Origin: Mytilus galloprovincialis
Taxonomy: Eukaryota; Mollusca; Bivalvia; Mytilida; Mytilidae
Assembly: GCF_965363235.1 (NCBI RefSeq)
Contig: NC_134849.1
Span: 12,302,863 to 12,366,862, forward strand
Direction of reading: 5' to 3'
Length of the DNA: 64,000 nt
Within the stretch, counting starts at the first letter, position 1. The number at the start of each line of letters is the position of its first letter. Both the position numbers and the translations under genes were made by a program. Positions 2,821 through 34,855 of this stretch are shown in pieces. Under the pieces are notes generated by a model that saw only the letters and a program-made list of their open reading frames with translations, was not told the origin of the DNA and ran no database searches.

Positions 2821-4465
2821 ATGGATTCTTTAACAGCATCTACATCTTTTATGCTCTTCATTCTGTGTGTTCAATCATGTATGTATTGTTATAGCAAAAG
2901 TATAAATGCCTTTGTGTTATGGCAATGGTTATTCTGATAAAGAAAAACAAAATGAAACCAAATTTAGCATGTTTAGCATGTGTATTGCACAAAAAATTAA
3001 AGTATGTTTTCATAAATTCCGAAAGGAAAACACATATCTGTTTTCTTTTGATGTGGAAACATACGACACAAAAGGCAGCCGTTTTGTTTTAATGCAGCAA
3101 ACATTCCCTTAAGGATTACTCTGTTTCAAAATGACAAGCTTCTTTAAAGGCTAATAAAAATTGATAAAGAAACGTTAAAACCAGAAAAAATGCAGGGTCC
3201 GTGTGCTTGTTTTCGATATATAAGCCGTTGAAAATTTGGAGGGATATGAAATTTTTAAAAAAATGGCTGATTTTACTAGCGTAGCGAATATCCTTCAGAG
3301 TTCAGTGTTTGACTCGTAAACAAGGTACAAATACAGCATGTACAGATAGGTATAATTTTAAAAAGATTTGTATAAAATTTCTCAGCTAGCAAAATCCGCA
3401 TTTTTTCTTAATACAATTAATATAATTGTATTGAGTTTAAGCAAAGCCAATCACTAAATAGCAAATCTACCTTCTAAGGGTTTTGGTCAAGCGTCCTTGT
3501 GAGTTATATTCTTTGATCTGTTTTTCATGTCAAGAATAGTGTCACAACATTCCTTCAAATATGATTCTAGCCAACATTAACCTATGAAAGCAAAAATGCA
3601 GTTAACTAAATAAGTATCAATGAGGTACAAAACGTTTCCCTACAGTGATTTCCCTCCGAGTTAATCAAATTGTAGCAATTTATATATATGAATTGCTGAT
3701 TTTTTAATTTAGCTATATTCATCTCAATATTTTAAATTAAGGTATTATTGTTAGAATTGAGACCAAATACCTGATATCGCATTTGCAGATATTAGGACTG
3801 CAAATATCGTCATGCCCTTTTCGTTGATATATTTGAATTAAAATAAAATTCAGAATTTTATCTCTTTGTTTATAGTTATTCAAACTGAAGCTAAATATTG
3901 TTATGATACGTATTCCATGGGTAAAAGACACGAGACCTGCGTAGATGATTCAGGGTAAGTTTTTCCCTTGAAACTATGAATATATAGTCAATACCTTAAA
4001 ACTAACAACAAACAAATGTTTTATCTGTTAATACTTTTAACGCGTTACGATTTAATCAAATGTAAAAAAAGAGAAAATGTTCAGTTCAGATAAAATTCTG
4101 ATAGTGACCTTTAAACACCTTGTATTGCTTTATCATATCTACTAGGATTTTAATTTTACAGCTATCTCAATTATATATTAATCTAACAGAAAGCCAGGTT
4201 ATCTGAAAGTTTGGCTTATAAGTTAAAAATTTAACGATTTTACTGAGACTGCATTGTACAAAATGAATTTTCTAAACGTTTTATTTGTATTTAGATAGGT
4301 CATTAGACATTATAACGATGATTACAAAATAATTTGATCAGAAATGGTTTATTTTTCAGAATGAACTTTGCAATAAAAATATTCTGCAGTGTTGTCATTC
4401 ATGTGGTACTTGCAATCCCGATTTCATTTTGTGTACGTAGAATATGGAGATGGCTGGGACATTGA
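2821..4465 (+). CDS. Small single-pass membrane protein, gene 1 (80 aa, three exons)
   Basis: Exons are 2821-2878, 3876-3954 and 4360-4465. Donors are GTATGT and GTAAGT; acceptors are TTTATAG and TTTTTCAG; the phases (1, then 2) fit across both introns. Residues 1-19 form a signal peptide (hydrophobic core FMLFILCV). Residues 20-46 form a tiny ectodomain with KYCYDTYSMGKRHETC, a Cys-x12-Cys pair (C28, C41). Residues about 49-69 form one membrane helix, followed by the basic tail RRIWRWLGH and TGA. Exon 2 has exactly the length of gene 2's (79 nt), and both splice phases match genes 2 and 3, which is the main evidence that it is real. I do not recognise the family. The expected topology is type I, at the cell surface or in an internal membrane. 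A short regulatory subunit, a ligand-like surface peptide or a membrane antimicrobial peptide are possibilities, not conclusions. Confidence 0.65.
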
Positions 4466-4617
4466 TGAAGCATTGATACTGATGAAATATGACTCTCCTC
4501 TAACAACAAGCGGAACATTATTTTTGGAAGCAAATCACATTTTCGTGATATTTAAAGGCTGAATGGAGATGCGTTTAATCAGAAATCTGTTGTTTAGAGG
4601 ACCATTGAATACTATCA

Positions 4618-4623
4618 AATAAA
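4618..4623 (+). terminator. Poly(A) signal after gene 1
   Basis: AATAAA lies about 150 bp after the stop of gene 1. A second one lies near 4708. No transcript is available to choose between them. Confidence 0.35.
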
Positions 4624-5309
4624 CTTCATTGTTATATACTTTCTTTTTAAGATTATAAGTATCAAATCTAATATTTTTTGTTTTCCTTTATGGTTAATAT
4701 CGAAAAAGAATAAAATTACATTCTATATTTTACTTAATCCATATTAATACCCCAGTCCCACTAGGCCACGATCGCACTACGATCTGTGAAAATTTTTTTT
4801 GATGATCGTGGTACGATCGTGTAGGTCGCAGTAAGGTCGTACCACGGTCGTGGTGAGGTCTTCAAGATCGTGAAGAGCGTGGCCAACTTTGAACATGTTC
4901 AAAACAATCGTGGTGCGGTCGTGGCGAAACAAGGTCGTAGTAGAAGCGTAGTGAGAGCGCACTAAGATCGTAGTAAGATCGCAAAAGTCGCTGTACAATC
5001 GTAGCGAGAGCGTAGCGAAAGCGTGATTCTATTTGGAGAGATTGCGCTACGATCGCACAGCGACGTTATCATGACCTAACTACGACCATCACGTTCTCAC
5101 CGGGACCCAACTACGCTTCCACTACGACTTAACCACGCTGTTCAAGACCATAGTACGATTCTAGCACGCCTTTGCCGTCCTCATCACGCTCTTCTCACGA
5201 CCTTACTACGTCCATCATTTTATTGTCATTTTCACATAAAATATATATAAAAAAAAACTCACTAGATTTTGTTTGTCTGAATGTATTTATCAATTTGCTC
5301 TAACGGCTC

Positions 5310-5525
5310 AACCATGCTTCTCGTTTTTATATGGATAAGACCGTTGGTTTTTCCCGTTTAAATTGTTTAAAATTAGTATTTTTTGGGGTCCTTTATAGCG
5401 TGCTGTTCGGTGTGAGCCAAGGCTCCGTATTGAAGACCATACCGTTGCATATAATGGTTTACTTTTATAGATTTTTACGTTGATGGAGAGTTGTCTCATT
5501 GGCACTCATACCACATCTTCCTATA
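5310..5525 (-). repeat. Dispersed mussel repeat ('gagtgccaatgagacaactc' family) inside W2
   Basis: Reverse-strand copy containing 'ctcattggcactcatacca' and 'tgagccaaggctccg'. The same family occurs at about 22545-22900, 26935-27160, 32605-32990, 35865-36045 and 59520-59655. It is non-coding. Confidence 0.7.
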
Positions 5526-5639
5526 TATATTGACACATCTGTGTCATCTCTGCTATCGTTCACTAAAATATTGTCATTTGAGCTTTATGGACCAGCAATA
5601 GGTTGTAATTTAGGTTTGATTGGTCGTTCCGACATCTCT

Positions 5640-6020
5640 TGCTGACAAGTATTATACTACTTATGTGTATAGTATCAGTTTAATTGAAGTCTGGAGCTGG
5701 CATGTCAGTTAACTACTAGTAGTCTGTTGTTATTTATGTATTATTGTCATTTTGTTTATTTTCTTTATTCACATCTTCTGACATCAGACTCGGACTTCTC
5801 TTGAACGGAATTTTAATGTGCGTATTGTTATGCGTTTACTTTTCTTCATTGGCTAGAGGTATAGGGGAAGGGTTGAGATCTCACAAACATGTTTAACCCC
5901 ACTATTTTTGCGCCTGTCCCAAGTCAGGAGCCTATGGCCTTTGTTAGTCTTGTACTATTTTAAATTTTAGTTTCTTGTGTACTATTTGGAGTTTAGTATG
6001 ACGTTCATACTTTGCTCCCT
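5640..6020 (+). repeat. Fragment of the 3' region of the Penelope-like family, inside W2
   Basis: This is the reverse complement of the non-coding tails of the two larger copies at about 39655-39990 and 47275-47610 (shared words 'catcagactcggacttctct', 'gtcccaagtcaggagcct'). It is a fossil fragment with no coding part. Confidence 0.7.
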
Positions 6021-6521
6021 CTGCATCTACATCAACCCCTACCACCACACCCACGTGTTCTATTAGATTTTGGTTGCATGACTGTATTGTTTCCGAGAAA
6101 TCTCCGTTTTAATCAGAAATAGAAGGAATGGAACTATATTGATATGAAATACGATATTGACGGTATTGCTGAGAACGTAGTAAGATCGCGGTATGAACGT
6201 AGTACAATCGTGGTAAGAACGTGCTATAATCGCAGTAAGATCGTGTTGCAATCGGATAACTCGTAATATGGTCGTAGTGAGAACTTGAAGAGCGTAGAAA
6301 GATCTTTATAAGCGTAGTGAGGTCGCAGAATAAGCGCGGTGAGAACGTGGTTTAATCGTAGCGGGATCGTTGTAGAAGCGTAATTAGGACGTAGTAGCAT
6401 CGTGAAAGCAACGAAAATTAACATTTTCATGCCGCTCATACCGCGACCTCACCACGATCTAAATTTATTTTAGATCGCGGTGAGCGTGGTGCGATCGTGG
6501 TCTAGTGGGACTGGGGCTTAA

Positions 6522-8149
6522 CATCACGGATGGATAAATTGCATAATTTGTAAAGCATGAACAATTCTTTGTTACATGCATATGCCTGCGTTCTCCGTAC
6601 ATAATTGGGTTAGTTTTTTATTAAAAAAATACCAATTATGGCAACCATATGGTTTTGTTAAAGGTTCATTTCACAATTTCAGTACATGAAGATTTCATTT
6701 ATTTAGTAACGATTACCTTACCAGAAATTGATATATTTTTTTTTCTTCAAATTATCTTAGACACGTGTTAAAGTAGTTTAAATTAAAAAAAGAAAAACTA
6801 GTGTTTCCAATCAAATTAGACACTTGTTAACGTGGTGATTTATTAAAGTACTATCCAATTAAATATATGGACATTAATAGTATATATCAGAATATTTATG
6901 TAATGAACAAGCAACTACAATTGAGGATTTGTAAATTGTGTTAAAGCCCTCCAATGAGCTAGGTATTTTTAATAAATGATCATGCTGTTCAACATCACCT
7001 GCAAACAAATTTTCACTTTTTTTCTATCAGCAGCCATTGCAAATGTGTAAAAATGTCGCATTATAAACTCGGAATTTCAAAGGGATTTGTTTGATTGTTT
7101 TAGTAATTCAGCAAAAATCGGACCTATCGCTAGTTTAAAATATTATGTACGTTCAATGATATTAACTTATTATTGGTTGTCGTTACGAAACTGCACACAC
7201 AACAAACTAAATATATATATTGAAATATATGGCAATACTAAGGAACGCCACAGCTGCCTTATGATAATAATAATATATGGCAATACGACGCCAATAAACT
7301 AAAACATTTTCCTGTGAAATGTTGATTTGTTGATGGATTTTCTCTTTGGAATATTTAAAGTTTTCTTAATTTGTATTCATAAATCAGGTAGTTATTGCAA
7401 GTATAATGCATTCCTGATACATTTCAATATGAATTAGACATTTCGCCCAAGGATAATTAACTTTCAAAGCGGAGGGTTTTTAATTAATAATTTTACACTG
7501 TTAATTGTGATATCGAAAAGTAGTGAGTGAAATTTTATTCAGACTAAATTCGATTGGAAATAATAAATACCGCAACTTGACGAAATCAGGTTTGTAAGGG
7601 GATAACATATAACATTAAGAACGTCTACAAAGTACAGCAAATATGTTATTGTGTTGGTAAAAGCAGAACGATTTCACGTTCATAGGAAACACCAAGCCCT
7701 GTTCGTAGGTCCAGCTGGTTGTCCGTTGATTGAGTCCACTCTTCAATCCTTGAGAAAATATCTTGGATTCGAGGGAATGAAATATATGTTTAATGTTGTG
7801 ACGATTCTGTAGGTCTGTTTGATGGGTCTGAATTATGTCTGGCTGCTGATGAGATTTTGAAATATATTTTGGTGAGCATTACAATTTTAAACAGCTAACA
7901 TTCACCTGCTTTTTTCATTCTAACATCCTAGATATTTGTGTTCTGACTAAAGCAAAGATATAATAAGAACATTATTTGGCCCTTATATCTAGAAAGCAGT
8001 CAATGTATTTACCTTTATTTTAAAAATTATGATAACTCAGTTAACCAGTAACTGATAACCAGTATTACACACATATATAAATATATAAATTCATGTTGAT
8101 CTTTGTACATTTCAATTTATTGACGGAGCTGAGCCTTGAAAGATTCATG
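6522..8149. other. AT-rich intergenic stretch
   Basis: No convincing gene or repeat. A somewhat GC-richer patch at 7690-7860 looks like a decayed coding piece, but I could not assign it. Confidence 0.4.
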
Positions 8150-8321
8150 ACTCGGGCAGAGACCTTACAGTTGACCAAGGTGACCTCTTAGTGTTATAGG
8201 ATAGAAAGACTCCTTCCGAACGGTTGTTTTGCATGATAGAATTCTGAATGCTCTTTCGTTATTATTCCTGGAAGGACGTTTATTCTGTATCAATTTATTT
8301 GATATATCAATCTTTACATAG
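8150..8321 (-). mobile_element. LINE fragment, C-terminal end of the reverse-transcriptase ORF
   Basis: On the minus strand one frame reads through SNKLIQNKRPSRNNNERAF and then VRKESFYPITLR, ending in a stop near 8174. The pattern R-x-NN-x-R-AF followed about 18 residues later by FYP-x-T-x-R is the usual C-terminal signature of CR1/Jockey-type LINE ORF2 proteins in invertebrates. It abuts the left end of the hAT element. A second piece of a LINE of the same strand lies at 13618-13835. Confidence 0.6.
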
Positions 8322-8334
8322 CAGGGTTTTCCAT
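8322..8334 (+). repeat. hAT left terminal inverted repeat
   Basis: CAGGGTTTTCCAT, pairing with 13605-13617. It is followed by a perfect 12-bp hairpin (TTCATTTTGGCC, loop TAACA). Confidence 0.7.
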
Positions 8335-8876
8335 TCATTTTGGCCTAACAGGCCAAAATGAATAAGTAGGTGGTCACCGGATAATAGGGGGGGGTCCGGG
8401 GGGGCTTGCCCCCCCGAAAAAATTTTGAAATCTAGATTCAAAATCCTGGCATCTGACGAATTTTAAGACAATATTTCATGCTTGTTAAATGGGCATATTA
8501 TTAGGAGAATTTTTTTCTAAAAAATTTTGTCTGCACAATTTTAAGACTTTGAATACTACTATAATTTAAACGTCATGAACGTTGACAAAATTAAGAATAC
8601 TGTTCTATTCTGTATTGGATACAAGCAATTTTATTTATTATTATTTAATTATAGATAGGATGCACACTATATTCTATATTATCATGTCTTATAAGCTTTT
8701 GTTTTGTAATAATTTTGTCATTTTGTCATGATATATTTAAGTTGTAATAGAAATACAAATAAAAATAGAATGAAAATCTTCTTGTTTTTAGAACTCGTAT
8801 AACCAAATGTACTTAGACAAGTCAACACAACATGGTGGGTAAAATTCAGACTATCAAATTGGTTAAATGAAATTTA

Positions 8877-11800
8877 TTAATCTAAATCATCAGAAGAGGA
8901 ACAATCATCTTCGGAGAGATTATCCATTTCATCAAGTTCTAGGATTTTCATTGCATTTCGAACTTCATTCAATGTCTGTCTGACTTCAGTTTCAATAGTG
9001 ACAATTTCTGTCGGTGTCTCTGTCTGAACACTTGCATCTTCGAGTACAGGTGCTTTACAAGTCATGGTGTTTTCTTGTACTTTAGATGTAGGAGCTCTGT
9101 TTGCTGGTAATCGTCTTCGATTTTTTGCACCAGTCCAGGTTGTTACTGCTCGTTTGATAAGAGCTTCACCTTCTAATGACTCAACAGGTGGCTCGTTTAT
9201 ACATACATGAAGAATTGAGTCTAGCATGTGGCTGGTTAGTCTGTTTCTTTGCTTTGTCTTAACATTTTTTAATGCACTAGCCCCTCTCTCAGGCCATGCA
9301 TTGGACACTGGAAGTGCCAATGCAACTTCTGCAATAAAAACTATACTAGGATAGAAGTTGCAAAATGATTTGTTTCTGACTAGTTGGTTTAAAAGCCATT
9401 CAGTGGCTGTAATTTTGGATTTTCCATCTTTCACATCTTGAGGCATGATCTTTTTCAAATTGTCATTGATCTGATATTTCAATCCTTGCCATTCTGTCAG
9501 CAGTTTTTCAGCTTTCTGATTTTTCTTTTCTTCTTCATCATCTTGATAGAAATGTTCTCCCGACACTTTGATCGAATCTTCTCCATACTCTTTAAATCCT
9601 GTTTCATCAGTTTTTGGTAGAAGTGTTGGGTCAAAAATTGCAAAAGACGATAAGACTTCTCCACAATCTTCAAATCGTCTATCAATGTTTTTGATTAATG
9701 CATCGACATACTTTTTGAAAAGAGATGTTAGTTCATCAGAATCTTTCTTTGTCAAGTTTATTTCTGCACACATATTTGTGAAAGAATCTATATCATTTCT
9801 TAAACTTTCAATAGGTTTATCTTCCTCAATTAGTTGTTTCAGCTTGTCCTTTGTCATGTTAATTGCTGGGCATATCACAGAAAAGTTTAAAGAGTCTTTC
9901 TGAAATAGTCTTGATAAATCAGCTAGTATTGGCAAAATGTCATTTAAAATGTATATAGCTCCAAGAAACTTAAGACCTTTCATCTTTTTTAAAAGTCCAC
10001 ATGCTGCTGCGTCATCTTTTTCTAACTTACTTAATGTATGAAGAATAACTTCATATTCTGAAAATACTGCTTTGACTGATGATTCAAGACTAAGCCATCT
10101 TGTCCTACATGCCTTCTTTAATCTTTTGCTTACAACTTTTTGGGCCTTATCCCCCATGGTAATATTTTTCAATTCCTTCTGAGTTTTTAAGTAAATGGCC
10201 ATTTTCTTCGGTGAATTTTCAAAGAGTTGCCAAAGTTGACGAAGAATAATTTCCATATTCTTGATAAAACTGATGGACTCGTTAGAATCAGCACAAGAAA
10301 GGGCAAGCTTGTGGCATACACAGTGGATGTTTATTAGACATGGATTTTTTTCTCTGAGACGTGTAGCGACACCTGTTCTTTTACCAACCATCACAGAAGC
10401 TCCATCAGAGGAGAAACCTGTAAGTTTTGAAACATCTAACTTGTCTGATTCAAGTTCTTCAAGCAACAGACCAGTTATTGTCTCAGCATTAGCAGCATTG
10501 TGTTTCTCAAGAATATCTTTACAGGACAAAAAGTTTGTTTTAGTTTCTTCATCTTTAAAGCTGTAGTACTGTATAAAAGTTACTAAATTTTCTTTCACAG
10601 AAATGTCTGCCACTTCATCTGTCATCAATCCAAACGCATTAGACTTTCGTACATTCTCTAACATTATTTCTTTCATCACATCCCCCAGAGTTCGAAAAAT
10701 CTCAGTTTGTGACCTTGCTGATCTGTGTTGAAAGAACTTTAAATGTTCAACCTCAAAGATTTTTTCAATAAACTGCAAGAGTGGAAGTAGTTTTTTATTT
10801 GCTACAAATTCTTTCATTAAGAAATATGCTGAAGAAAATACTTGGTTTAAAACAGTGTTATTCACTTCTGTTTTCTTAATAACTTCTTGATGGAATACCG
10901 AAACTTGTTGTAATAACTCATTTTGTAAAGCAGCAATATGTAATTTACTTTGCACATGAGTATTTAGAGAATCGATTTTGAATCTTACACTTGGTGTAGA
11001 GGCAAATACACTGCGTTGGTTTTGTGGGTGCTTCATCTGATGCTTTTTGCAAACCAAACAAAACATGCCATCATTTTCAACAAAACAGAGCCACCAATTT
11101 TTACTGTTAAGCCAGGAGTGTTTAAATTTTTTGAAGATCTGGGAATCAGTATGAATAGTTGTAAAAAAGGAATGTACTGCTTTGTTCTCAAATAAATCTT
11201 CTACGTTTGTTTTACATTGTTTAAAATTCCACGGACCATAACTCTTTTCATTTGGCATTGAGATATAATCTTTTGAAGATTGAGACTGTTCATTAACAGA
11301 ACTACTAGTAGGGTGTGTTGCCGTTTCTGTTGAAAATCCTGGCTCAGGTTCTTTTTCTTCACTATGCTGATCTTTATCATAGCAGCTACTTGTAGGGGAG
11401 GGTGATTCATCTATTGCATTGCCATTAATGTCAACACAGTCATTGCCTGAAACATATAATAGTAAATACAACTAATCAATCTTGAATAAAGAAAAATTAA
11501 ATGATGTGGCTAATGGAGTGTGTTTCAAAAAAATATTTATATAAATTATAAATATCATACATGTACCAGTTATTTTCAATATATGTAATTGCTAAATTGC
11601 ATCGTTCTTTGATTAAATACTGTTTACAACAGTTACTTCATTTATAAAAATATAGAACCTTTAAATTCAAAATACATTTTGTGTTGTCTTTCTGATAAAA
11701 CTACATCACATGTTGTTTCATCTTATTTTTTATTCTGTATTGATTTGTTATGTCTAAATCTTTAAAGGCTTCAATTATATATACTTACATGATTTGTATT

Positions 11801-13302: not shown

Positions 13303-13604
13303 CTTCAACAACAAACGAAAGTTTTTAACGACCTTGACATGGCATGACTTGCATAAATACTCGATATCTCTCGGGAGTTTCTCTTTCGATGGATAACGGC
13401 CGTGTGTTCCGATAGAAATCCAAACCGGAACTCTCAAACGTAAATAAAACTTCAAGAATTGAAGATAATAATAAAGATCAATAAAGTTACGAAATGTAAA
13501 ATAGTCGTATAAGTAAAATATGCACCCAAATTTTTTAGACTGATGACGATTGAACCGGCCAAATAATTGCTTGAACCGGTCAATTTGGCCGGCGGCCGGT
13601 TCTT

Positions 13605-15049: not shown

Positions 15050-16570
15050 AAAAGGAAAAAGATTGTTCATTTGAATACAAAAGGCTAATTTAAATCACGA
15101 TATAAACATGATAAATATGTTACACAAAAAACTGTTTTTAAGTTTTGGGAAAGTATCTATCTATATATATTCACAAAAGTCCAATCTATTTAAAACTTAA
15201 TAATAGTCAAGCATTAACCTCTTGGCATCGCTTTGACTTGCGTAATACCTATAAATAGCATAACGAAACAATAATATTACAGCACTATGCACACGGCAAC
15301 ACATCCACAGTAAACGATATGAATCTTATAAAATCAAAGGAAATATTTGTAGTATGCATTGTCTGCCTACAATCATGAAAGTTTTGCTATCAATACTAAC
15401 AAATTTCTCACTATTTTATTCAAACAACCGCATCAACGTACTTATATTTCTTCAGAAAATGTCATTGTTTTATTAAATTTGGATGACTAAATGCTCAATT
15501 ATGAGCTTTCGCTTTCCCACCTAATAATTTATACACAGTTATATAAATAACCAGGAAAGAAACATAAAAAAGCATTTTGAGACCATAACACTTGATTTGA
15601 AGAATATTAAATTCAAAGCTACAGACGATTTTAATATATCCTTGTAATGCAATAGTTACAATCGAGCTAAAAAAAAACTAATTAAAAAAAAACTTGAAAG
15701 ATGATCGACTTAAAAAGGCTCTTTTCCAACACATTAATCTTTGAATCCTATCAAACTAAAACTGGTTAGATTCATTTAACCTGGATGACTGATACACAAA
15801 TCCTAGTATGGCGTAAACACGACTGAAACAAAAAAATCTATAAATTTCTATTTACCAACAAATCACATCAATGTTATCGATTAGGTGAACTATCAAAATA
15901 AATAGATCCACTTTTTAAATTATGAATGGAAACTACTGTTAGCAAAAAATTAACTAGCTGTAAAACAACTTCTGAATAAACAATAGGTTTAAAAACCGCC
16001 TTATAATGACAACCTTACAATATACTAAAATTTTAAAATTTTATTTGTAGATATTTACTCACTTGAAACAAAAAGATTGTTTAATTCAATACACAAGGTC
16101 AATTTTAATCACAAAATAATTTTGTTACACGAACAACTATCTAGATAATCTGGGAAAATCTCTTTATATATATATACATATCCATAAAAGTCAAATCTAT
16201 TTAAAACATTATATGTCAAGTACTTACTACATGGCATCGCTTTGATTTACGTAATACCGGTATATAGCATAACAAAAATAAAAATATTATTCATACGAAG
16301 ACATATCCACAGTATGAGACATGAATTTTATAAAATCGAAGGAAATATTAATATTATACATTCTTTGTCTAATCTCATGTAAGTATAGTTATCAATATTT
16401 GTTTACCTTGATTTCATTTTATTAATTTTCAACCCGAAGTATCATTCATTGATACATATTGGGGCGACTAATTGCTCAATAAAGAACTTTTCCTTTCCCT
16501 CCTGATGATTCTTTAGTTTTATTCAAACTTTAACCTTTATCAACTCCCAAGTAAGGAAAAACTAAAGCAT
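15050..16570 (+). repeat. Tandem duplication of promoter plus first exon (about 1 kb offset)
   Basis: The block from about 15055 to 15580 matches about 16060 to 16575 in order: 'aaaagattgtt', 'ctatttaaaac', 'ggcatcgctttga', 'cgtaatacc', the signal-peptide exon, then 'gctcaat' and a pyrimidine tract. The copies differ at many places, so the duplication is not recent. It yields the broken first exon at 15319 and the intact one at 16321. Confidence 0.7.
15319..15376 (+). pseudogene. Duplicated signal-peptide exon with lost splice donor
   Basis: Codes MNLIKSKEIFVVCIVCLQS, 11 of 19 residues like the first exon of gene 2, preceded by TATAAATA (15250). Where gene 2 has GTAAGT directly after TCAT, this copy has GAAAGT, so the donor GT is lost and reading on meets TGA at once. 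No second or third exon of its own is seen before the gene 2 promoter. Either it is dead or it uses a cryptic donor. Confidence 0.6.
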
Positions 16571-19500: not shown

Positions 19501-22342
19501 GTATTAATTCCTGAATGAATAGTATTTGTGGTGATAATTGTGAATGCACGTATTAATTCCTGAATGAACAGTATTTGTGGTGATAATTGTGAATACACGT
19601 ATTAATTCCTGAATGAACAGTATCTGTGGTGATAATTGTGAATGCACGTATTAATTCCTGAATGAACAATATTTGTGGTGATAATTGTGAATGCACGTAT
19701 TAATTCCTGAATGAATGGTATTGGTGGTGATAATTATGAATGCACGTATTAATTCCTGAATGAACAGTATTTGTGGTGATAATTGTGAATGCACGTATTA
19801 ATTCCTGAATGAACAGTATTTGTGGTGATAATTGTGAATGCACGTATTAATTCCTGAATGAACAGTATTGGTGGTGATAATTGTGAATGCACGTATTAAT
19901 TCCTGAATGAACAGTATTTGTGGTGATAATTGCGAATGCACGTATTAATTCCTGAATGAACAGTATTTGTGGTGATAATTGTGAATGCACGTATTAATTC
20001 CTGAATGAACAGTATTTGTGGTGATAATTGTGAATGCACGTATTAATTCCTGAATGAACAGTATTTGTGGTGATAATTGTGAATGCACGTATTAATTCCT
20101 GAATGAACAGTATTTGTGAATGCACGTATTAATTCCCGAATGAACAGTATTTGTGAATGCACATATCTATTCCTGAATGAACAGTATTTGTGGTGATAAT
20201 TGTGAATACACGTATTAATTCCTGAATGAACAGAATTGGTGAATGCACGTATTAATTCCTGAATGAACAGTATTTGTGGTGATAATTCTGAATACACGTA
20301 TTATTTCCTGAATGAACAGTATTTGTGAATGCACGTATTAATTCCTGAATGCACAGTATTTGTGGTGATAATTGTGAATGCACGTATTAATTCCTGAATG
20401 AACAGTATTTGTGGTGATAATTGTGAATACACGTATTAATTCCTGAATGAACAGTATTTGTGGTTATAATTGCAACTAAAGCTTTCTACTCTGATTTGTT
20501 CAATTATAACATTTCTTAAAAGATATTGAGGATACGTTTTTACACGACAATTTGTCCATTGCTTCTGTTTACTTAATTTTTGCTTTTTTGATAAAAAAAA
20601 GCAAAATAAAATATGCATAACAAACAAACCCTACTGAATTAGACTATTTACCGGATCTGTTATCTCATAAACAGCACGACGGGTGCCACATGTGGAGCAG
20701 GATATGCCTACTGTTCTGGAGCACTTGATATCACTCCTGGTTTTTGTTGGAGTTCGTGTTGTTTATTCTTTAGTTTTCTATGTTGTGTCATGTGTACTAT
20801 TATTTGTCTGTTTTTCCTTTTCATTTTTAGCCATGGCGTTGTCAGTTTATTTTCGATTCATGAGTTTGACTGTCCCTCTAGTATCTTTCGTCCCTCTTCT
20901 ACAGCTCCACTTGTCTGCGTTTGTCGCATAGTCCTTTGTATTAAAAACTATCCCAAATCCACTTTCTTTCGACATTTAAGCTTTTAAGTACTCCGGTCAG
21001 TCAAGTCACATGAACTTTCAACATAATATGCCTCTTTGCGTTATTGTAAAAATAACTCAAGCTTAAATAGATCAGGCTAGAACATTTATCTTGACCTAAT
21101 TGTGGGCCAGACTATATATGTCCAAAATATGTTACCTCCTTCCTCTTATAAATCAAATGACAGTACGAATATGTTTTTAATTACGTTGATCGTGTCTTCA
21201 TATTTTCAGTCGTTGAAGGTTATAACGAACACGTGAATAAAACATACCCTGGAGGAAGGGATCACGAGACTTCTGAAAACGAGAGAGCGTAAGTATTTCT
21301 TTCTTTAAAAATGTTTGCTCCTCTTCTTTACGATTTTTTTGCAAGATATTTGGAATTCTATGGTTGTATCCTTTTCATACCATTGAAACATTTTCCCTGC
21401 TAACCCCAAGAGAGCTGCAAGAGAGCTGTGCTGTAATTGTTAGTGCAGTGCATGACCGTTGCAATGATGACTGACTTGACTTCTCATTGGGGATTATAAA
21501 CACTTGCGAAGAGTTGAAAATTCAAATGTCGTTTTAGTTTTTGAGTTACAAAAAAAGAGTTACTAAAAAGCGGAAATCTGTAAAACAGTTAAGCCTTCAA
21601 GATCGTGCGTAGATAAATTGCTGTTTATCAAGTAAGTTATACGTTTGGATGGTTGAGTATCGATCATAATTTTGAATGTGATTCAAAGGAGAAAAACTAA
21701 AGACACATGATCGCAATGCAGAATTATATACCACTTCCACACTGCGTCTTATAGGGAAAAGGTAACTCTACATATCGAATCAATGAAAATAAGGGATGTT
21801 TTTTATGCATATATATACACGATACACCAACCGTTTGCTTGAAACAGCAGGAAATATCATGACCGACATTGACAGAATAAAAAATGCGTTAACATGGTAA
21901 AGAAATTATTATGTCGAATGAGACCACTTCAGACGCTGATGTAAGGCGAAGGGTGTCCGGCCCCGCCCTTTTTTTTTTTTGAAACCTTGGTTGATTTTAA
22001 AGGAAATCACTAAGATATCACTTGAACAGACTCACTTTTAGCCAGCCAGTACACTCCTTTCCCTTTTTAAAATCCTGGATACGCCACTTCAATTTAGGTG
22101 TAGTTCTTAAAATATTTAATGTCTGACTAATACATTTAATAGTTATATGGAATAAAATTTCGTAAACCTTAACAGGTACCATTCTGATTTCATGCATTTT
22201 TTATTTTAGATTAACATATGCTATAACAATGGTTGTAGTTGGCTCTATTCCTGTACTCACACTAGTAATTGGATGTATAACATTTGAGATATGCAAGAGG
22301 AAAAAACTTGGTTCAAGCAAAATGTATCTACAATTTAAATAG
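16321..22342 (+). CDS. Small single-pass membrane protein, gene 2 (89 aa, three exons)
   Basis: Exons are 16321-16378, 21210-21288 and 22210-22342. Donors are both GTAAGT; acceptors are TATTTTCAG and TTATTTTAG; phases 1 and 2 fit as in gene 1. Residues 1-19 (MNFIKSKEILILYILCLIS) are a signal peptide. The ectodomain aligns with gene 1 and gene 3 through TYPGG and HET, but both cysteines of the Cys-x12-Cys pair are replaced (V and S) and an N-glycosylation site NKT has appeared. A strong helix follows (MVVVGSIPVLTLVIGCITF), then the basic tail KRKKLGSSKMYLQFK and TAG. Intron 1 is 4.8 kb and contains a minisatellite and mussel repeats. The function is unknown; type I topology is inferred. Confidence 0.65.
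16925..17480 (+). repeat. Two tandem copies of the ACGCCAGACGCG-family repeat in intron 1 of gene 2
   Basis: 16960-17110 and 17310-17465 share 'tcctcaatgctc', 'cttcgtacttcatt', 'cactgatgagt' and 'gacgaaac', each ending in the GCGTCTGGCGT or GCGCCTGGCGT word. The first is followed by 'gggtcgatgccattgctgg...', a further part of the same mussel repeat that also appears at about 47010-47100. Confidence 0.7.
17925..18020 (-). repeat. ACGCCAGACGGG-family repeat, short copy
   Basis: Contains 'tacgccagacgggctttttgcctacaaaagactcatcagtg' in pieces matching the copy near 990. Non-coding. Confidence 0.6.
18231..20472. repeat. 2.2-kb minisatellite, 49-bp unit with 37-bp variant, in intron 1 of gene 2
   Basis: The unit runs GAATGCACGTATTAATTCCT, GAATGAACAGTATTTGT, GGTGATAATTGT (49 bp) and repeats roughly 45-50 times. 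About nine units lack the 12-bp GGTGATAATTGT (37 bp); they cluster at about 19130-19400 and 20105-20330. There are no spacers, so this is a plain tandem repeat. Divergence is lowest in the middle and higher at both edges, as expected from unequal crossing-over. Open frames across it on the minus strand are by-products of the repeat. Confidence 0.9.
20690..21000 (+). repeat. Dispersed mussel repeat ('agccatggcgttgtcagttt' family)
   Basis: Contains 'tagccatggcgttgtcag' and 'ttgactgtccctctagtatc'. Related copies lie near 45110-45230 (reverse), 61800-62170 and, as shorter parts, at 33500-33640, 38440-38600 and 59800-59880. Open frames in it are not genes. Confidence 0.65.
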
Positions 22343-24916: not shown

Positions 24917-25160
24917 CAACTCGTCTAAACATCAACCCAACAATGTTAGATCTGTAAATTTGCTTTCGCAAATTTTTAGTTCTTCCCTCGCCGGGATTCG
25001 AACCCATGCTACTGTGATATCGTGACACCAAATCGCCTGCACTGCAGCCGTCCCGCTAGACCACACGACCACCTGGGCTCTCAAAAAAAGAGCTTTCGGT
25101 GGGCATGTGTTACCTTTCCACGTCAGTTTTAATCTAGCGGCGTACTACAGTACATGATAT
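24917..25160 (-). mobile_element. tRNA-derived SINE, family 1
   Basis: On the minus strand GGTGGTCGTGTGGTCTAGCG (A-box region) is followed about 60 bases later by GGGTTCGAATCCCGGCG (B box), as in a tRNA head, then 'gagggaagaac', a GCGAAAGC-type stem ('tttgcgaaagcaaa') and the tail 'gttgatgtttagacgagttg'. The 3' end runs into a (TA)n tract at 24895-24916. The body upstream of the head (25084-25160, 'gagctttcggtgggc') also belongs to the repeat as I know it from mussels. It is not a working tRNA gene: the cloverleaf arms do not pair. Confidence 0.75.
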
Positions 25161-25249
25161 ATAAGGCATGAAGATGTTATTGTTACAGATCAGCTAAATT
25201 ATCTATAGTAAAGGATCCTACAAATTAATGTAAGATACAGTCACAGAAA

Positions 25250-25456
25250 ATAATTATATTCATAAGTACGTCTGAGTCAGTGACAACCCTACAACAGATG
25301 TATCCATCGGATCGCCATCAATGATGGTGATACATGGCTGTGTACATAATGTATATACAACTCGTCTTAACATCAACCCAACAATGTTAGATCTGTAAAT
25401 TTGCTTTCGCAAATTTTTGGTTCTTCCCTCGCCGGGATTATATATATATATATATG
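25250..25456 (-). mobile_element. Partial copy of SINE family 1
   Basis: 25350-25437 repeats the tail of the copy above almost base for base, from the 'acaactcgtct' end into the B-box edge 'cgccgggatt', where a (TA)n run cuts it off. 25250-25349 holds the neighbouring part of the same repeat ('gatggtgatacatggctgtg'). Confidence 0.7.
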
Positions 25457-25458
25457 TA

Positions 25459-26924: not shown

Positions 26925-26934
26925 ATAGATTTAG

Positions 26935-27160
26935 GGAGATGAGGTGTGAGTGCCAATGAGACAACTCTTTATCCAAATAACAATTTTTAAAAGTAAACCA
27001 TTATAGGTCAATGTACATCCTTCAAGACAGAATATTGACTCACACTGAACAATTATCTATAAAGGGCCCAAAATTGCTGTTGTACAACCATTCAAACGGG
27101 AAAACCAACGGTCTAAAATACATAAAAAAAGCGAGAAACATATATATGTATATTCTTGAT
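26935..27160 (+). repeat. Dispersed mussel repeat ('gagtgccaatgagacaactc' family)
   Basis: Close copy: 'tgagtgccaatgagacaact', 'aaagtaaaccattataggtc', 'caaacgggaaaaccaacgg'. It directly follows W3. Confidence 0.75.
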
Positions 27161-29139
27161 GAAAAACAATAATTTTTAGTCGAGTTCAAAATTAACGATC
27201 TATTGCTGTCATCAATTTTTGCTCATTTCAACGTTTCTTTTTGTATTATCTAAATCACAATTATATTATATTGACCTTGCACGCTTCATTCCCGTATGTT
27301 TTCCCGATGGTTGGTGCCTTCCTTTAGCTTTACACCAATCTAATTTATTAGAAAATGTGCACATGTTAAAGACTGTATATACCCATTGGACAAAGTATTA
27401 CCTTAACTTTCACAATTCAAATATTTCATTGTTATACATGTAGTTCTTATGCAGATATCTAAACTGAACGCAAGAAATTGTTTTGTTAAAAATCAGTTAT
27501 ACATTAAGAATTCGTATATTGTATTGATTGCAAAAAAAAAATCGTATGTGATAAGTACTGGTCTACTTTTTTCGAAGTATGACGATCATTATCGAAAACG
27601 CACACACAGTTGATCATTTTATTTGCTACTTTGCTATTTGTTTTAATAAATATTGAGTGATATGCAATTAGAAACACATACGTATTGTTTAAACTGTGAA
27701 TATTTATTTTAAATTGCACACTATCTGAATCATCTGAAGTATATCTTTTTAAAGAGAAATTACAAAAATACCGTCTATATTTAGGAATAATTCCTTAAAT
27801 AAAATATAAAAAAGACCTTCGAAAAGGAAAACAAATAGTCTATATTTTTGTTCTTGATTAAGATCTTTTGTCCATGATTTGTCGAGGAACAAGTCGTGTC
27901 TGTCTTCTATATATGATATTTTAGCTATAAAGGATGTTAATACTGGAGGCATGCCATGACTAATCAAAGGAGTAAAATTGTAATTTCTTTATCTTGGACT
28001 AATTTGATGTTGCCAAATATTGCTCGATACTTATGAGGTCAACATTTACAAATTTAGCTGTGAAATAACAGCAGTGACATTGACCATTTTAGAAATCTTG
28101 ATTTGAAGTTTTTACATTAGAATCGGTACAAATGATCTCTAGAGTTTTTTTTCTTCTTAAGATATTAACATTAACACGTTGCTCTTCCAAAATGTTATTT
28201 TTGCGTCTTTGATAGAATGTTATGAATTTATACGATTCTTAAAGATTAACTAGACAATTTCCTTTCGTGAGTATATAAGCACATCGCAATGTTCTTTCAT
28301 GTAATTTTAAAAAAATGGTGCAATATAAGTAAAGAACGGTTAAATTAGCAGGTCGGAGATTATCTTTGTTCATAGAAACACGAAATACTTGAAACGTTGA
28401 AAAAGTGGGGAATGTTGAGCGTTTAAGTTATGAAAATATCCTGACATCTATCTAGTAACTATTTAATCACTCTATCTGACAAACTTATATGATTTGTTGA
28501 GCATCAATTGGTTTACAAACTTAAGTATTTAAAGAAATTAAAACGTTTTACGCCATTCAAGTTTTAATTGCTTTGAGTAAAGATAGAAATAATGAAATAG
28601 TTTTATTTTGAAACTACGAAGGCTGCGTGATGATTATAATCACAATAGTGTAGATTGCTGAACTATATACAAAGAAAGTTTCCTTGAAATATTCAAAATA
28701 ATATTTCATATTTATTGTTTTGGGCATTCGGGAGAACATGATCCAAAATAAATGTTGTATTTTGTTTTTATGAAATAAAATCAAACGATTAATGGGTTTA
28801 ATGAACAAAAAACATCTGTATTTGTTTAAAATACTTAAGAAATATACATAACTTATCCGATACAAAATATAACATGTATAATATGGCGTCTTTCAAGTCA
28901 TTAAAACCGAACTCAGGAAATGTTATTCTTAAAATTTACATTATAAACTCTAGACATAATCATACATAACTATCAATTAATTACCCCTTTTAAGTTTAAA
29001 TTCCTATACTTCCATTACCTACTTGTATTAATTATATATCCATCTTGAATTTCAATATCGAACATGTCTCAGAAATTTGCATCTGTTAAACTAAACAATA
29101 ATTACCGGTGTGTTATTCCTGTCTTTTGGTCAAAGGGTA
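27161..29139. other. AT-rich intergenic stretch downstream of gene 3
   Basis: Only short frames of low complexity. No repeat family or RNA gene is recognised. Confidence 0.45.
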
Positions 29140-32100
29140 TCATTTCTGTTTACTATTTGATGTTTGTCCTCTTTTTGTACATTTCTTATAGATTTTGTAT
29201 ACTACGCATATGATGATCAATACACCAAGGGTAGTCCCTATTGCAAGTCCTATCATTATCACAAGATGGTTCCTGAAACAAAACAAAGTATCGGATAAAA
29301 AAATTCTCCATCATCAACATCATTCACACTTAGGACAATGTATACATTTTATGCAGCAAAACTTAACACATATCCTTTTTATATAAGTAAACAATCATAA
29401 CAACCAATCAAAGTTAATTTAAATGTACTTTAATGCATTGCTACTATCAGTCTATTGTGCACGAACCTTGATTGCTGCTGCTTATGGATTTAAGATATAT
29501 GTCTTTAAAATCCGACAGTAATATCCAATATGACGGACATCGAAAGATCAATTTTTACCTTACTATTCATTTTTTTTCAAAATGTACTGGTCATTTAACT
29601 TTTGGCTTTAAGTTATCATAAAACCACTTGATTACTATTACGTTTAAAATGTTTATAGAAAATGTTAACACTTCCGGTAAAAAGCAATATGGCGTAAGTT
29701 TCCAAGATTAGTACTCAATTGGTATCCTCGATGTAGAGTTGGATGTACCGTTAAAAAAATAAAGTAATTAAACTACCAAAACTCCCTTAAAAGAACTGAT
29801 ATATGGCTGCAATTAGGTCTATTCACAATTACCATCACAAGAACATAAAGCAGTGGAGACTCGATTTTCAACATTAACAACGACAGTGGCATATTTCTTA
29901 AATCCTTAATGTACAACCTGCTGACAAGACAAAGAGGCATCTTAAAGTGCTGTCCAGAAAGGTTCACATTGATCATCGTTGTCCCTACGCTTTCTATTAG
30001 CGCCTATACTAGACTAGGTAGCAAAGAAACAAAGCGTGTTCCCCATACACGTCCAGCAGTGGAATATTGCACTTTTTACATGCTGGAAAAGTATAGACTC
30101 GTCGGCATATCATCAACTAGTCTTCCCTTTTGTACATCAATTGTTTTGCTTCTGATGACTTTGTTATACTGTACATAAAAACCACGCATTGTTCTATCAA
30201 AGTCATTATAAAATTCATACCTGGTGATGTAGGCTGATCAATCACCATTTTGAATACTACAATAACATCGTCAGATACCAGCCAGTATCCCACGCAGTCA
30301 ATGTCCTTTTCCAGCAAGTCAATTTCCTTTTCCAGCAAACGAAAATACATGTACCATTTCACAACCGGTAAAGGCATGGAAAACATGAAGTGTGTGTGTG
30401 ATCGCGCAATGCCTAGTACATTTGCAAGGTCGTGGATAGATATATATCTACAGTTTTTTTTTCCATTTCCAAACGCATGCGTTTATACGAATCTCACGGA
30501 ATAGTGAAACAACAGTGACATCAACATCAGTATCGACTAATTATGACTTGTCCTTGTTTCACTGCATCATACACAAGCGCCTAGATTCTACTGTCAGCCT
30601 TTTCATGTGAACATGGTGAATAACTTACAAATGTAAAACATCATCACGTGGTGAATAACTTAGAATATCCTGAGAATTTGCTGCTACAGCTACCTTTTCT
30701 TCAAATTTTTGTTGAGCAAGCTGCCGTGAAAGAAACCTTTAATGTTTTTTTTTTCTAACTGTCGTCTTCTCTTAAATTTTTTTTCCAATTTTGAGGAACT
30801 TATTTTGACCCTGCCGTGTCTGGGTATTTTCTTTCTAATCTTGATGTCTGTTGTAACTTTCAAACTAGTGTCTGTGTGCATATCCAAACGTCTTTCTGAT
30901 TACAGTTGCCGGATGATTCCTAATGTAAGAATACAAATTTAACTCACTTTTCAAAGGTAAGAGATGTTGATGGTTCGATTGCTGCTTTGTCATTAATTAA
31001 AACATCCACCTCAGGAACATCATCTGTCGTTGTTGTACAGTAACTAGTATTTAGAAGATCAGATTTGGTCCCGAGACGTATATTTTTATACCGGATTGCT
31101 GAATATTATATAAAAAAACTCACAAAAGAAAGGTTTGTGCCAAATTTGATGCAGTTATATTGAGTGGTACGCTTATTCATATACTTTTTGTTGAAATTGA
31201 CTTGAACAGGATAAGATGTCCGCCATTTCACATTTAACCGTAAGTGAGACATTTTTTCAAATGCCTACCTATCTGAATTAAAAGTAATGCTTTAGGTAGA
31301 TTTATGCTAAATTTCATACTTGTAGCAGGTAATGCACAACTTTTCTGAAATATGCTGGTAGTCGCTGAACTATTACACGCGCAGTATATATTTTGCATTT
31401 CAAATTATTATAAATTAAACAGTACATTTAATATTTACAGTTAAGAACAAGACATGCAATTAAAAACCAATTCTTCAGAGAACAATTGAAGGTCTTTCCA
31501 CCTCGATAATAAGAAAGAAATAAAAAAAAACGATGTCAGAAAATGTCACTGTGTTGATGTGATGTGGTAAATCAAACTGATATAAAAATAATAAGATTAA
31601 TAGGTTTATGCAGAAGACTTAATTGTTTTTTAATGACCCAGAAAGAAATTTTAGCAAAAGTCAAAATCTAGAACGTCAAATTGACCTTTGACCTTGACCT
31701 CAATTTTTAGGTCATAGGTCCGTGATCCGAAATCAAAATATCTCAGGTCAATCACTTGTATGGTTGTGGATAAAATATTAATTTTAAATACAAAAGGGTC
31801 GAAAACTCCCATAAGGGTTAACCAAACCTCTTCGACTTAGAAAGGTTTAAGTTGAGCCTTATTGTAAACAGTTATTTGGCAAACACATCATATCATTAAC
31901 TGTAACAGTTTCTTATGAATAAAGATAAAAAACAAAATTCAAATTTTTTAACATGATCTTGACCTTTGACCTTAAACTCAATGTTCTTCAAATGGACCAA
32001 GGACTTCATATCAAAAGACTGTATGCCTCTATGACTTATAACATATGAATTTATCTAACATATCGCCTATCTTAAATTTTCAAAGGGAAATAACTCCCAT

Positions 32101-34855
32101 AAGATGTCTTCCGATCACTCCAGTCAAAATTAACCAAATCATTCTTAACAGTTTGTTAAAATCTTTTACAGTTTAGAGATATAGCCATAACAAGAAAAAG
32201 AGGACGTGGGGAGATAACTCCTATAAGAATAAGTATTCGGTCACACAGGGGGGGGGGGGGGGTTTGAAATCCCCATTACTTTACAACATCATTGGCCAAA
32301 GATCGATTCGATATGTTGGAAGACAAAAAAGCATCTCAGACGGCAGAAGAAGAAAAAAAAAATAATCAGAGGAAAAACAAAAGGTCTTTCCACGAAAAGT
32401 GGAAAGTGGAAAGACCTAATTACAGATACGCACTTAATTTCCCTATGAATTTCGCATTTTTATGAATGTGTCCTAAAAGGAGTCAACTATTATCAATCAG
32501 GCAAGATAATTTCTCAATACTTCTAGCGCTTGATAAAAAAAATATCATAATGAAAATATAAATTTATAGTGTGAATTGAAAAATTAAAACATGTGGTATG
32601 ATGAGATTAAATGCAGAGATGTTTACATCAATATAATAACGCATGGTCTTCAACTATGAGAAAACATAAAACACAGAGTAAGCTGTTAGAATAAAGGCAT
32701 AGAAATGACCTATACACACATTTCAAGCGAGAAAACGTCTGATGTATGTATTAAACAATAAACGGAAAACAAATATAATATTCAACAGCAAACGAAAACA
32801 ACTAAATTAAAGACTCCTTATTTGGACACAAAAGGAATGTGGTTTACTTGTTTTAAAGTCGTAGCCGATTCAGTAACAGTACAAAATAAGAACAGACTGT
32901 ACCTTAGGTCTAACACAAAGAAATCATGTAAAATAAGGTTAACATCATATCAAACAGTATTATATAAACTAACAAGGATTGGAACCAAGTTTGGTTTAAT
33001 TTGGCCCAGTATTTGAATTTAAAGCAAGTCATCAAATTGTAATCTTACAATAGTCACTACAGACCCCTTATCATTACATAAATTAGTTTTCAAGTTGCGA
33101 CTATTTGAAATTTTTGTTTTTATCTTTTTTCACATAGACTTCAATAATAAACCTCTTTATTCTATTTTAGCAAAAGCGGCTATCTTGGTTGATGGGCGGG
33201 ATCTTCGCAAACAGTTGTATACTAGATATCCTAAGAACGATTAAGGCCCAGTCAACCAGCTGATTCGTCTGAAAATCACAGATGAACATTGCTATCCCAG
33301 TCAGATTTGCTTTAAATGCATTAGTTATAGAGTTAAAAGTCAAATACTGCATTTTATCCCCATGATCTATTTTTAACCATCTAGAATATATTTGTTTATG
33401 GATGGGGTCATCGGATACGTTTTGTTTTAACAAAGATACACGTAGGATAATTTGGGCTAAGTGCGGTTTCACATTACTATAAGACGTGTCACGGTACTTT
33501 TCTATCCCAAATTCATGTATGTGGTTTTGATGTTATATTTGTTATTCTCATCGGATTTTGTTTGTTACCCCGATTTTGATTTTTTTTTGTCCATAGATTT
33601 AGGAGTTTTGAACAGCGGTATACTACTGTTGCCTTCATTTAGTTATACCCAGCAGTTTCAGAGAAGAAGATTTTTTAAAAAGATAACAAAAATTGAGGAA
33701 CAATTGTGAAATTTTAACTCAAAAAGGGAAATAACTCCTTGTGGGTTTAACTGACAATTTTGGTTACGTTGACTAATTTGTAGATCGTACTTAGCTGAAC
33801 AAATAAGTTATAACATTTTATCTCTATCTTTTCATGATTTTATGATATTCAAAATATTAACCCTAAACTGCAAAATGGACCTAGTATTACAAATTCAGGG
33901 GCACCACTAGAACAACGGTTTGTCTGATGCGTCTGAAATTGTCAGGGCTGATAGATCTCGCTCTAATCACCGATTGTACTCATATAAAATACGCTCTAAA
34001 TACGTCATTTATGAGTGAAAAGTATAATAAGTGAAAGCCAAAAAAGGCATCCACATTGTAGAACCGTGAACGATCGTATGTGTATAACAATAGCACGTAG
34101 TTTGATTATTGTTTAGAAAATGAATAATTCATACCGATAAAACATTATTCTGATGAGATATAATAACAGTGTTGAATAAGTTGCTTTTTGGACTAAATTT
34201 ATTCAAAAGATGGATAAAGTTATCGATATTATATCTTAAATTAGTGTCCGGGCTAAAAAAACATCGTAAAAATTATGATGTGTTATTCTATTTGTAATAA
34301 ATCTTAAACAAGTACAGCTAAACTCCATAACAAAGTATTTTTCTCTTTAGAAGAATTCAACATGTTCGAATTTTTACTCATCAATTAACTTGTAATAAAT
34401 AAATTGAGTGACTTAAAACTCAGATTGTAAAGGGAAGACAAAACAAAATGAGCATCTTCATCCAAAAAAGAATAGAAAATACAAAACAATACGGAACGAT
34501 TTTTTTCTTCTTCTCCTTACTTTCTTTGTTTGATTTTTCTGTCTAAAACGGAAATATCTTAATTTATTCAAAGTAAGGTATTTTGGGTAAATTTCGGCAG
34601 ATTAGTTCTATCTTTTTTTAGTTTTAACGAAACAAGATGGTGGCAGGAATTGATTACATCATTTAAATGCAGTTTAAACGAGTTTTTACTGAGTGTGGCG
34701 GTAATCTTTGATTCAAAGAGATCAATTACAGCTTTGAACCTCTCTTCACACCATCAATAAGTATCAATAGCATACTTACGTATCTATATCTATACAGGTA
34801 TTTGTCTTTTTACCTCCAGGATAGGTATCATAACAATATTTACCTTCAGCTGAAA
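29140..34855 (-). CDS. Small single-pass membrane protein, gene 3 (two of three exons certain)
   Basis: Exon 2 (34780-34855) reads F-SAEGKYCYDTYPGGKK-TNTCIDIDT, entered in phase 1 after TTCTTATAG and left in phase 2 at GTAAGT. The terminal exon (29140-29272) follows TTTGTTTCAG, also phase 2, and reads NHLVIMIGLAIGTTLGVLII, then ICVVYKIYKK and a polar basic tail ending KQK and TGA. The Cys-x12-Cys pair and TYPGG match genes 1 and 2, as do both phases. The signal-peptide exon is not found close by; a phase-1 candidate of the right kind lies far upstream at 46419-46479. The 5.5-kb intron holds the orphan module exons, whose phases do not allow direct splicing to either exon. The function is unknown. 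Confidence 0.55.
30221..31098 (-). CDS. Orphan extracellular-type module, two exons, phase 1 to 1
   Basis: Exon a (30948-31098) follows ATAATATTCAG and ends at GTGAGT; exon b (30221-30447) follows AAAAACTGTAG and ends at GTATGA. Joined, they read about 126 residues without a stop: KNIRLGTKSDLLNTSYC..., VDVLINDKAAIEPSTSLTF, SIHDLANVLGIARSHTHF, VVKWYMYF..., DCVGYWLVSDDVIVVFKMVI, ending DQPTSPG. Two cysteines, an N-glycosylation site (NTS) and alternating beta-strand-like segments suggest a small secreted beta-sandwich. Equal phase-1 borders are typical of shuffled extracellular domains. I cannot name the fold; Ig or FN3 are guesses. It sits within the intron of gene 3 on the same strand but does not fit its phases, so either linking exons are unseen or it is a separate, perhaps partial, gene. 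Confidence 0.45.
31489..32417. mobile_element. Inverted-repeat element with AGGTCTTTCCAC ends
   Basis: AGGTCTTTCCAC at 31490-31501 is exactly inverted at 32406-32417. The right end is itself a hairpin (AGGTCTTTCCAC again at 32382-32393). The interior has no gene; it includes a G14 run near 32249. It looks like a non-autonomous DNA element of a kind common in bivalves. No target duplication is clear. Confidence 0.55.
32605..32990 (+). repeat. Dispersed mussel repeat ('gagtgccaatgagacaactc' family), worn copy
   Basis: Retains 'caagcgagaaaacg', 'aataaacggaaaacaaat' and 'gactcctta' in the order of the copy at 22545. The 64-codon frame inside it is not a gene. Confidence 0.5.
33460..33645 (+). 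repeat. Dispersed mussel repeat, part copy
   Basis: 'tcatcggattttgtttgttaccccg' and 'aacagcggtatactactgtt' recur inverted at 38440-38600. Non-coding. Confidence 0.55.

Follow-up and report, generated by a model that had tools for sequence, protein, structure and literature searches.

Gene organization

The window analysed here is a stretch of 64,000 nucleotides (nt) from the Mytilus galloprovincialis genome (assembly GCF_965363235.1, 1.385 Gb; contig NC_134849.1, hereafter C12; C12:12302863-12366862), in which an earlier note, made from the sequence alone, had described a family of very small proteins with a predicted signal peptide, a short ectodomain and one membrane helix. The assembly carries the foot-protein-1 repeat of Mytilus, with a 770-residue open frame on C4 (at least 8 matches, 94–98% identity). 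From our own reading of the sequence, the window contains three such loci, genes A and B on the plus strand and locus C on the minus strand. Their exon lengths, splice sites and intron phases (1, 2) are those that had been claimed, as is the 58-nt first exon in two of them (A and B). The features are as follows, in window coordinates:

2821..2878, plus strand: gene A exon 1, with start codon, predicted signal peptide and phase-1 donor GTATGT; shows DNA homology to the first exons of B, F, G and H
3876..3954, plus strand: gene A exon 2, ectodomain IQTEAKYCYDTYSMGKRHETCVDDSG, phase-2 donor GTAAGT
4360..4465, plus strand: gene A exon 3, membrane helix, RRIWRW tail, stop
4618..4623, plus strand: candidate polyadenylation signal of gene A, AATAAA, read in the sequence
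15319..15376, plus strand: duplicate of the gene B first exon plus its upstream region, donor GT changed to GA, probably dead
16321..16378, plus strand: gene B exon 1, with start codon, predicted signal peptide and phase-1 donor GTAAGT
21210..21288, plus strand: gene B exon 2, ectodomain VEGYNEHVNKTYPGGRDHETSENER, no cysteine, an N-K-T sequon, donor GTAAGT
22210..22342, plus strand: gene B exon 3, membrane helix, CKRKK tail ending MYLQFK, stop
34855-34780, minus strand: locus C exon 2, SAEGKYCYDTYPGGKKTNTCIDID, phase-2 donor GTAAGT
29272-29140, minus strand: locus C exon 3, helix with GxxxGxxxG spacing, basic tail, stop

Gene A joins exons of 58, 79 and 106 nt into a product of 80 amino acids, and gene B exons of 58, 79 and 133 nt into one of 89. 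Both fall within the 80–90 residues proposed earlier, but two relatives, F and H (listed below with D and G), exceed them, splicing into frames of 99 amino acids with a stop. Locus C comprises an exon 2 of 76 nt and an exon 3 of 133 nt. Exon 2 is entered in phase 1 and left in phase 2 in A, B and C alike, and the succession of a phase-1 and a phase-2 intron around an exon 2 of 76–79 nt recurs in F and H and around exon 2 of D.

The fixed three-exon plan is complete in A and B but could not be completed in C, for which a strict pattern scan of both strands of the window found no supported first exon. A candidate near 46479 (minus strand, two nested starts), obtained with a relaxed scan, was rejected because its score lay inside the shuffle range, and the places at 53866 and 40810 (minus strand) that the two gene B first-exon copies matched in BLAST, when read, contain no such exon. 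C alone is inverted, and as the window offers it no supported first exon, it may have been separated from that exon by the inversion.

A minisatellite with a 49-nt period occupies approximately 18.2–20.4 kb of the window, within intron 1 of gene B. Within intron 2 of locus C lies a decayed coding-like stretch (30117-31026, minus strand), perhaps a transposon remnant.

Relatedness of the exons

The second exons of A and C match each other with an expectation value (E) of approximately 1e-7. Profiles from which one member had been left out recovered exon 2 of A (E 2e-8), C (E 2e-10) and B (E 0.002) among the 2,850 open reading frames of the window, every family target ranking above the best non-family frame (E 1.1, 0.17 and 0.89, respectively). 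With the profile lacking B, exon 2 of B stood third, behind A and C. Because it is recovered in this way we assign B to the family despite the loss of both cysteines; the cysteine motif that the earlier note had placed in the ectodomain is thus present in A and C but not in B.

The first exons are related at the DNA level, A being 66% identical to B over 89 nt (E 1e-4, exon plus its 5' side); against the dead copy of B at 15319 the identity is again 66%, over 88 nt (E 6e-6). A pattern consisting of CACAG, a start codon, a hydrophobic frame and a phase-1 consensus donor matched only A, B and H when both strands of the window and of 29 further loci (two of them inside the window) were scanned; it was devised after the family had been read and is not an independent test.

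For the last exon, a pattern of phase-2 acceptor, membrane helix and basic tail gave four matches on the two strands of the window, three of which are the exons of A, B and C; the fourth, at 5788, was taken as chance. No pairwise alignment among the last exons of A, B, C and D rose above shuffled sequences. As an ungapped set these four exons show a weak likeness (p 0.007 at 24 positions; 0.03, 0.12 and 0.09 at 8, 12 and 16, respectively). Common ancestry of the last exons taken in pairs found no support in nine of ten pairs (p 0.15–0.69), C–H alone being clear.

Distribution and condition of the loci

The assembly was searched with exons 2 and 3 of C, exon 2 of A, D and H, exon 3 of F, B, A' and D, the first-exon DNA of A and B, and one motif pattern. 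Thirteen credible loci were found, all on C12 between 12.27 and 13.07 Mb, 12 of them on the plus strand:

12.274 Mb, plus strand: D, open in exons 2 and 3; its last exon is one of two candidates
12.306-12.307 Mb, plus strand: A, open in three exons
12.319-12.325 Mb, plus strand: B, open in three exons
12.338-12.332 Mb, minus strand: C, open in exons 2 and 3
12.645-12.650 Mb, plus strand: B', broken by a 1-nt deletion in exon 2 (78 nt)
12.658-12.666 Mb, plus strand: G, broken; a 51-nt first exon loses the frame and an acceptor AG has become GG
12.696 Mb, plus strand: A', open in exons 2 and 3
12.742 Mb, plus strand: A'', open in exons 2 and 3
12.848 Mb, plus strand: B'', broken by two stops in exon 3; exon 3 evidence only
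12.905-12.916 Mb, plus strand: F, open in three exons, 99 amino acids
12.941 Mb, plus strand: A''', broken by a 7-nt deletion in exon 2
13.049 Mb, plus strand: B''', broken by two stops in exon 3; exon 3 evidence only
13.067-13.075 Mb, plus strand: H, open in three exons, 99 amino acids

No credible family match lay beyond this region of C12 among the matches listed, which for the query with exons 2 and 3 of C were the best 5 of 13 candidates and for exon 3 of D the best 3 of 6. The locus counts are lower bounds, since the search scores the best candidates only and most of the cluster is unread. Matches of D exon 3 on C11 and C10 (E 0.5 and 0.7) were taken as chance, as were the five of 11 motif-pattern matches that fall outside the cluster (the backward control gave nine). 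The local expansion suspected by the earlier note is thus supported, but extends over 0.8 Mb rather than 32 kb.

Usable splice sites and open frames through all three exons are found in four of the 13 loci (A, B, F and H), and a further four (C, D, A' and A'') are open in exons 2 and 3, their first exon not being established. H served to predict the first exon of F, which was then found in a 901-base stretch, with 58 nt and a GTACGT donor. For D a scan gave only unsupported first-exon candidates; downstream of its exon 2 are two candidate last exons, 68 and 368 nt off, of which the second was chosen for its better pyrimidine tract. A first-exon candidate for locus L012 in the stretch L043, about 4 kb upstream, is weak: of six references, one gives it a score of 59, above the highest value among 200 shuffles (56), and the other five give scores inside the shuffle range. 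B'' and B''' were each found by exon 3 alone (E 0.04), with approximately 73% DNA identity to B.

The order of the loci points to B-, C- and A-type genes having been duplicated in blocks. The doubled first exon of B (the dead copy at 15319) has a like doubling beside B', so that the doubling is probably older than the duplication of B. In H (L008) three successive first-exon copies precede exon 2, at 1236, 2340 and 5343. The copy at 1236 has no consensus donor and that at 5343 no ATG; only the one at 2340 has both.

All of the duplicated loci lie at separate places on a single contig. A and A' differ by approximately 9% in their introns and B and B' by approximately 6%; they are clearly paralogs. 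A' and A'' show 73 mismatches in 2,079 plus 60 in 772 aligned positions (3.5–7.8%). The flanks of F and H differ at 89 of 4,218 aligned positions (approximately 2.1%), and B'' and B''' at 48 of 2,116 (approximately 2.3%). In the pan-genome report, the mean heterozygosity of M. galloprovincialis is given as 1.73% (PMC7653742). Because their divergence is close to allelic difference, F/H and B''/B''' are perhaps two haplotypes assembled in a row, which would leave 11 loci.

Predicted proteins and comparison with known families

The predicted mature ectodomain has only about 21–24 residues. Exon 2 of the A-type genes and of C encodes two cysteines with 12 residues between them, that of D one, and those of B, F, G and H none. 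N-x-T sequons are found in B (NKT) and, at the same place in the alignment, in F/H (NDT), with a further NNT in F/H and NYT in G; A and D have no N-x-T sequon, and C has NTC. As read from these sequences, the ectodomain could have switched from a disulfide to a glycan, but the genome is AT-rich and asparagine is common in it. A dibasic pair stands inside the ectodomain of A (KR) and C (KK). In C, F, G and H the helix keeps G8, G12 and G16 of the GxxxGxxxG arrangement. The tails of A, B, C, D, F, G and H are all basic, with a cysteine close to the membrane.

The earlier note could match the family to nothing known, and this holds for the proteins that we tried against Pfam, NCBIfam and the sequences of PDB. 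Pfam matches had E values of at least 0.006, below the curated cut-offs, in searches that ran to E 10 with A, B and the C fragment and to E 0.1 with D and H. The best PDB sequence matches had E values of 0.097 for C and 0.76 for B, with nothing for A, and NCBIfam gave nothing for A and B and, for H, E values of at least 0.011, far under the cut-offs. Searches of the window against Rfam and for transfer RNAs yielded no matches. No description of the family appeared in listings of the open-licence literature on short or lineage-specific mussel genes and on molluscan FXYD proteins, or in one search with the literal motif.

The FXYD proteins, which bind the Na,K-ATPase, are small type I membrane proteins of about the same length; their PFxYD motif directly precedes the helix, and cysteine and basic residues follow it. 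The mussel proteins resemble them in size and plan and in the cysteine and basic residues that follow the helix, but in A, B, C, D, F, G and H no PFxYD adjoins the helix. CYYR1, Shisa and WBP1/VOPP1 proteins also have a signal peptide, an ectodomain containing cysteine and tyrosine, and one helix; they are richer in cysteine, whereas exon 2 of the mussel family holds at most two. No CYYR1, Shisa or WBP1/VOPP1 model was matched up to E 10 (A, B and the C fragment) or 0.1 (D and H).

The myticalins, as described, are restricted to Mytiloida and have short precursors with a signal peptide, encoded by multigenic families with pseudogenes among the copies (PMC5577615). The present family shares the short length, the predicted signal peptide, the multiple copies and the pseudogenes. 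The same source gives the myticalin plan as a first exon containing only 5' untranslated region (UTR), with a dibasic site, a mature region that is cationic and a C-terminal extension that is anionic (PMC5577615). Unlike this, exon 1 of the mussel family holds the start codon and predicted signal peptide and its last exon a membrane helix; an additional 5' UTR exon may lie upstream of exon 1. In the M. galloprovincialis pan-genome study, dispensable gene families are young, recently expanded and have shorter open reading frames (PMC7653742), and the present family is likewise young, expanded and short, a likeness rather than an assignment to that set. Judged by its sequences, the family belongs with none of the FXYD, CYYR1/Shisa/WBP1-type or myticalin families.

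Other features of the window

Between genes A and B an 864-codon open frame (8877-11471, minus strand) codes for a hAT-like transposase, as indicated by a C17orf113 zinc finger (E 5e-14) and a hAT dimerisation region (E 2e-5). Repeated blocks at 39713-43384 and 47278-52930, 83–93% alike, represent a decayed element containing frames with a reverse-transcriptase-like YLDD, an inverted fragment of which is found at 5674-6008. A 222-nt direct repeat (50159-50380 and 51870-52091) is 97% alike over copies 1.7 kb apart.

Selection and interpretation

We consider it fairly probable that these loci constitute a real and young cluster, expanded in tandem by birth and death over 0.8 Mb of one Mytilus chromosome, of type I membrane microproteins that act by helix pairing. 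In the proposed scheme, expressed copies would use exon 1 as a signal peptide, with cleavage close to small residues in the first part of exon 2. That exon would provide an extracellular stretch with one C...C loop (A and its copies, and C), a single cysteine (D) or N-x-T sites (B, F, G and H), and exon 3 a single helix and, after it, a short tail that is basic and has a cysteine close to the membrane. Serving as an accessory or regulatory subunit, the protein would use its helix to associate with a larger partner in the membrane or with another copy of itself. On size and topology alone, the mode of action is probably pairing with a partner; it is the likeliest one because there is no room for an enzyme and no catalytic or signalling motif was seen. 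The exons and phases, the paralogy, the clustering and the gain and decay of copies are seen directly in the sequence, and expression, signal cleavage, topology, disulfide, glycans and partner binding are inferred.

The evidence on selection is modest and mixed. Between A and L012, exon 2 differs by 5%, with three synonymous changes and one replacement (Fisher p 0.02), and the introns by approximately 9%. Exon 3 of C compared with L003 gives a synonymous divergence (dS) of 0.83 and a replacement divergence (dN) of 0.24 (Fisher p 0.002 on rounded counts), and compared with L004 a Fisher p of 0.005. From such comparisons long-term constraint appears probable. Exons 1 and 2 of F and H are identical, which is weak evidence of constraint since the identity extends to the 171 nt around exon 1.

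A number of observations weigh against the interpretation just given. Measured against the mutation spectrum of the introns, the older constraint weakens to p 0.03 for C/L003 and 0.08 for C/L004. dN exceeds dS in exon 3 of L003/L004 (0.26 and 0.20) and in exon 2 of L007/L008 (0.20 and 0.11), L004 and L007 belonging to the broken locus G. First-exon ratios are mostly near one and were counted against constraint, and in gene A some 60-nt intron windows equal exon 2 in conservation. Purifying selection on exon 3 is not seen among recent duplicates, which have no synonymous and 21.5 replacement changes (13.5 in the tree of A, L012 and L013, 5 in L003/L005 and 3 in B/L040); A and L012 alone differ by 9% there, with nine replacement and no synonymous changes. 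The chance of finding no synonymous change under the intron spectrum is 0.003, in a test that was picked after the counts had been seen and that takes in the broken L013 and L040 and the possibly allelic L003/L005. Replacement-to-synonymous ratios near or above one, which the earlier note had regarded as telling against the family, thus hold for recent duplicates and some other pairs, but not for all older splits. To these points are added the glycine pattern, confined to the C/F/G/H group, the judging of signal peptides and cleavage by eye rather than with a predictor, the lack of a supported first exon in C, and the five broken loci among the 13 (B', G, A''', B'' and B'''). As far as sequence comparison can tell, recent constraint on exon 3 seems absent and recent diversification is possible. 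A polymorphic surface-recognition or arms-race system, in which the loop changes between disulfide and glycan, the helix-and-tail exon diversifies and B-, C- and A-type genes duplicated in blocks give rise to new variants, is a speculative extension that we think doubtful.

Several of these points would also fit a formerly functional cluster whose copies are now mostly unexpressed and unselected, an explanation that we regard as unlikely, yet the most serious of the alternatives. The broken loci, the dead first exon at 15319, the two defective ones at L008 1236 and 5343, the lack of a first exon in C and the purely replacement changes in recent exon 3 sequences all agree with it. It does not account well for the four loci that keep correct splice sites, phases and three open exons even though B and H each share only 26% identity with A in exon 2, nor for the lean toward constraint in exon 2 of A/L012 and exon 3 of C/L003 and C/L004; the identity of F and H in exons 1 and 2 adds little here, given their identical surroundings. 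Perhaps instead the exons are pieces of longer genes with further, unrecognised ectodomain exons, as exons of 76–79 nt are easily overlooked and the introns of B, C, F, G and H are several kilobases each. We think this improbable, for the introns of gene A measure only 997 and 405 nt, the phases of neighbouring exons already fit, and no 60-nt non-exon window at 3420-4700 stands out in both L012 and L013 as an obvious additional exon, with the caveat that several gene A intron windows differ by just 2 of 60 positions and that the first half of intron 1 is unaligned to L011–L013.

We give a similarly small chance to a precursor that sheds its short ectodomain as a signal or antimicrobial peptide. 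Two reports describe young short-peptide families with strong copy variation in Mytilus (PMC5577615, PMC7653742), and the KR of A and KK of C lie within the ectodomain. The dibasic pair is, however, not retained in B or D and is not placed between ectodomain and helix; the ectodomains are not consistently cationic, and the last exon encodes a membrane helix, not an anionic propeptide. Least probable by some distance is a mollusc analogue of the FXYD-type ion-pump regulators. The similar size and plan, the YxYD motif of A and C, and the helix followed by cysteine and basic residues speak for it, but no FXYD profile appears among the Pfam matches up to E 10 for A, B and the C fragment, and the motif lies farther from the helix than in FXYD proteins and is lost in B and H.

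We retain the young cluster of helix-pairing membrane microproteins as the preferred interpretation. Its value as a discovery at the level of annotation hinges on expression and taxonomic range, and the hint of selection on the helix exon is interesting but weak. If the all-replacement pattern of exon 3 survives a population sample, it would offer a test case for selection acting within a membrane helix and not the ectodomain. If expressed, the loci would represent a new mussel family of very small membrane proteins, in which birth, decay and exon divergence can be traced copy by copy.

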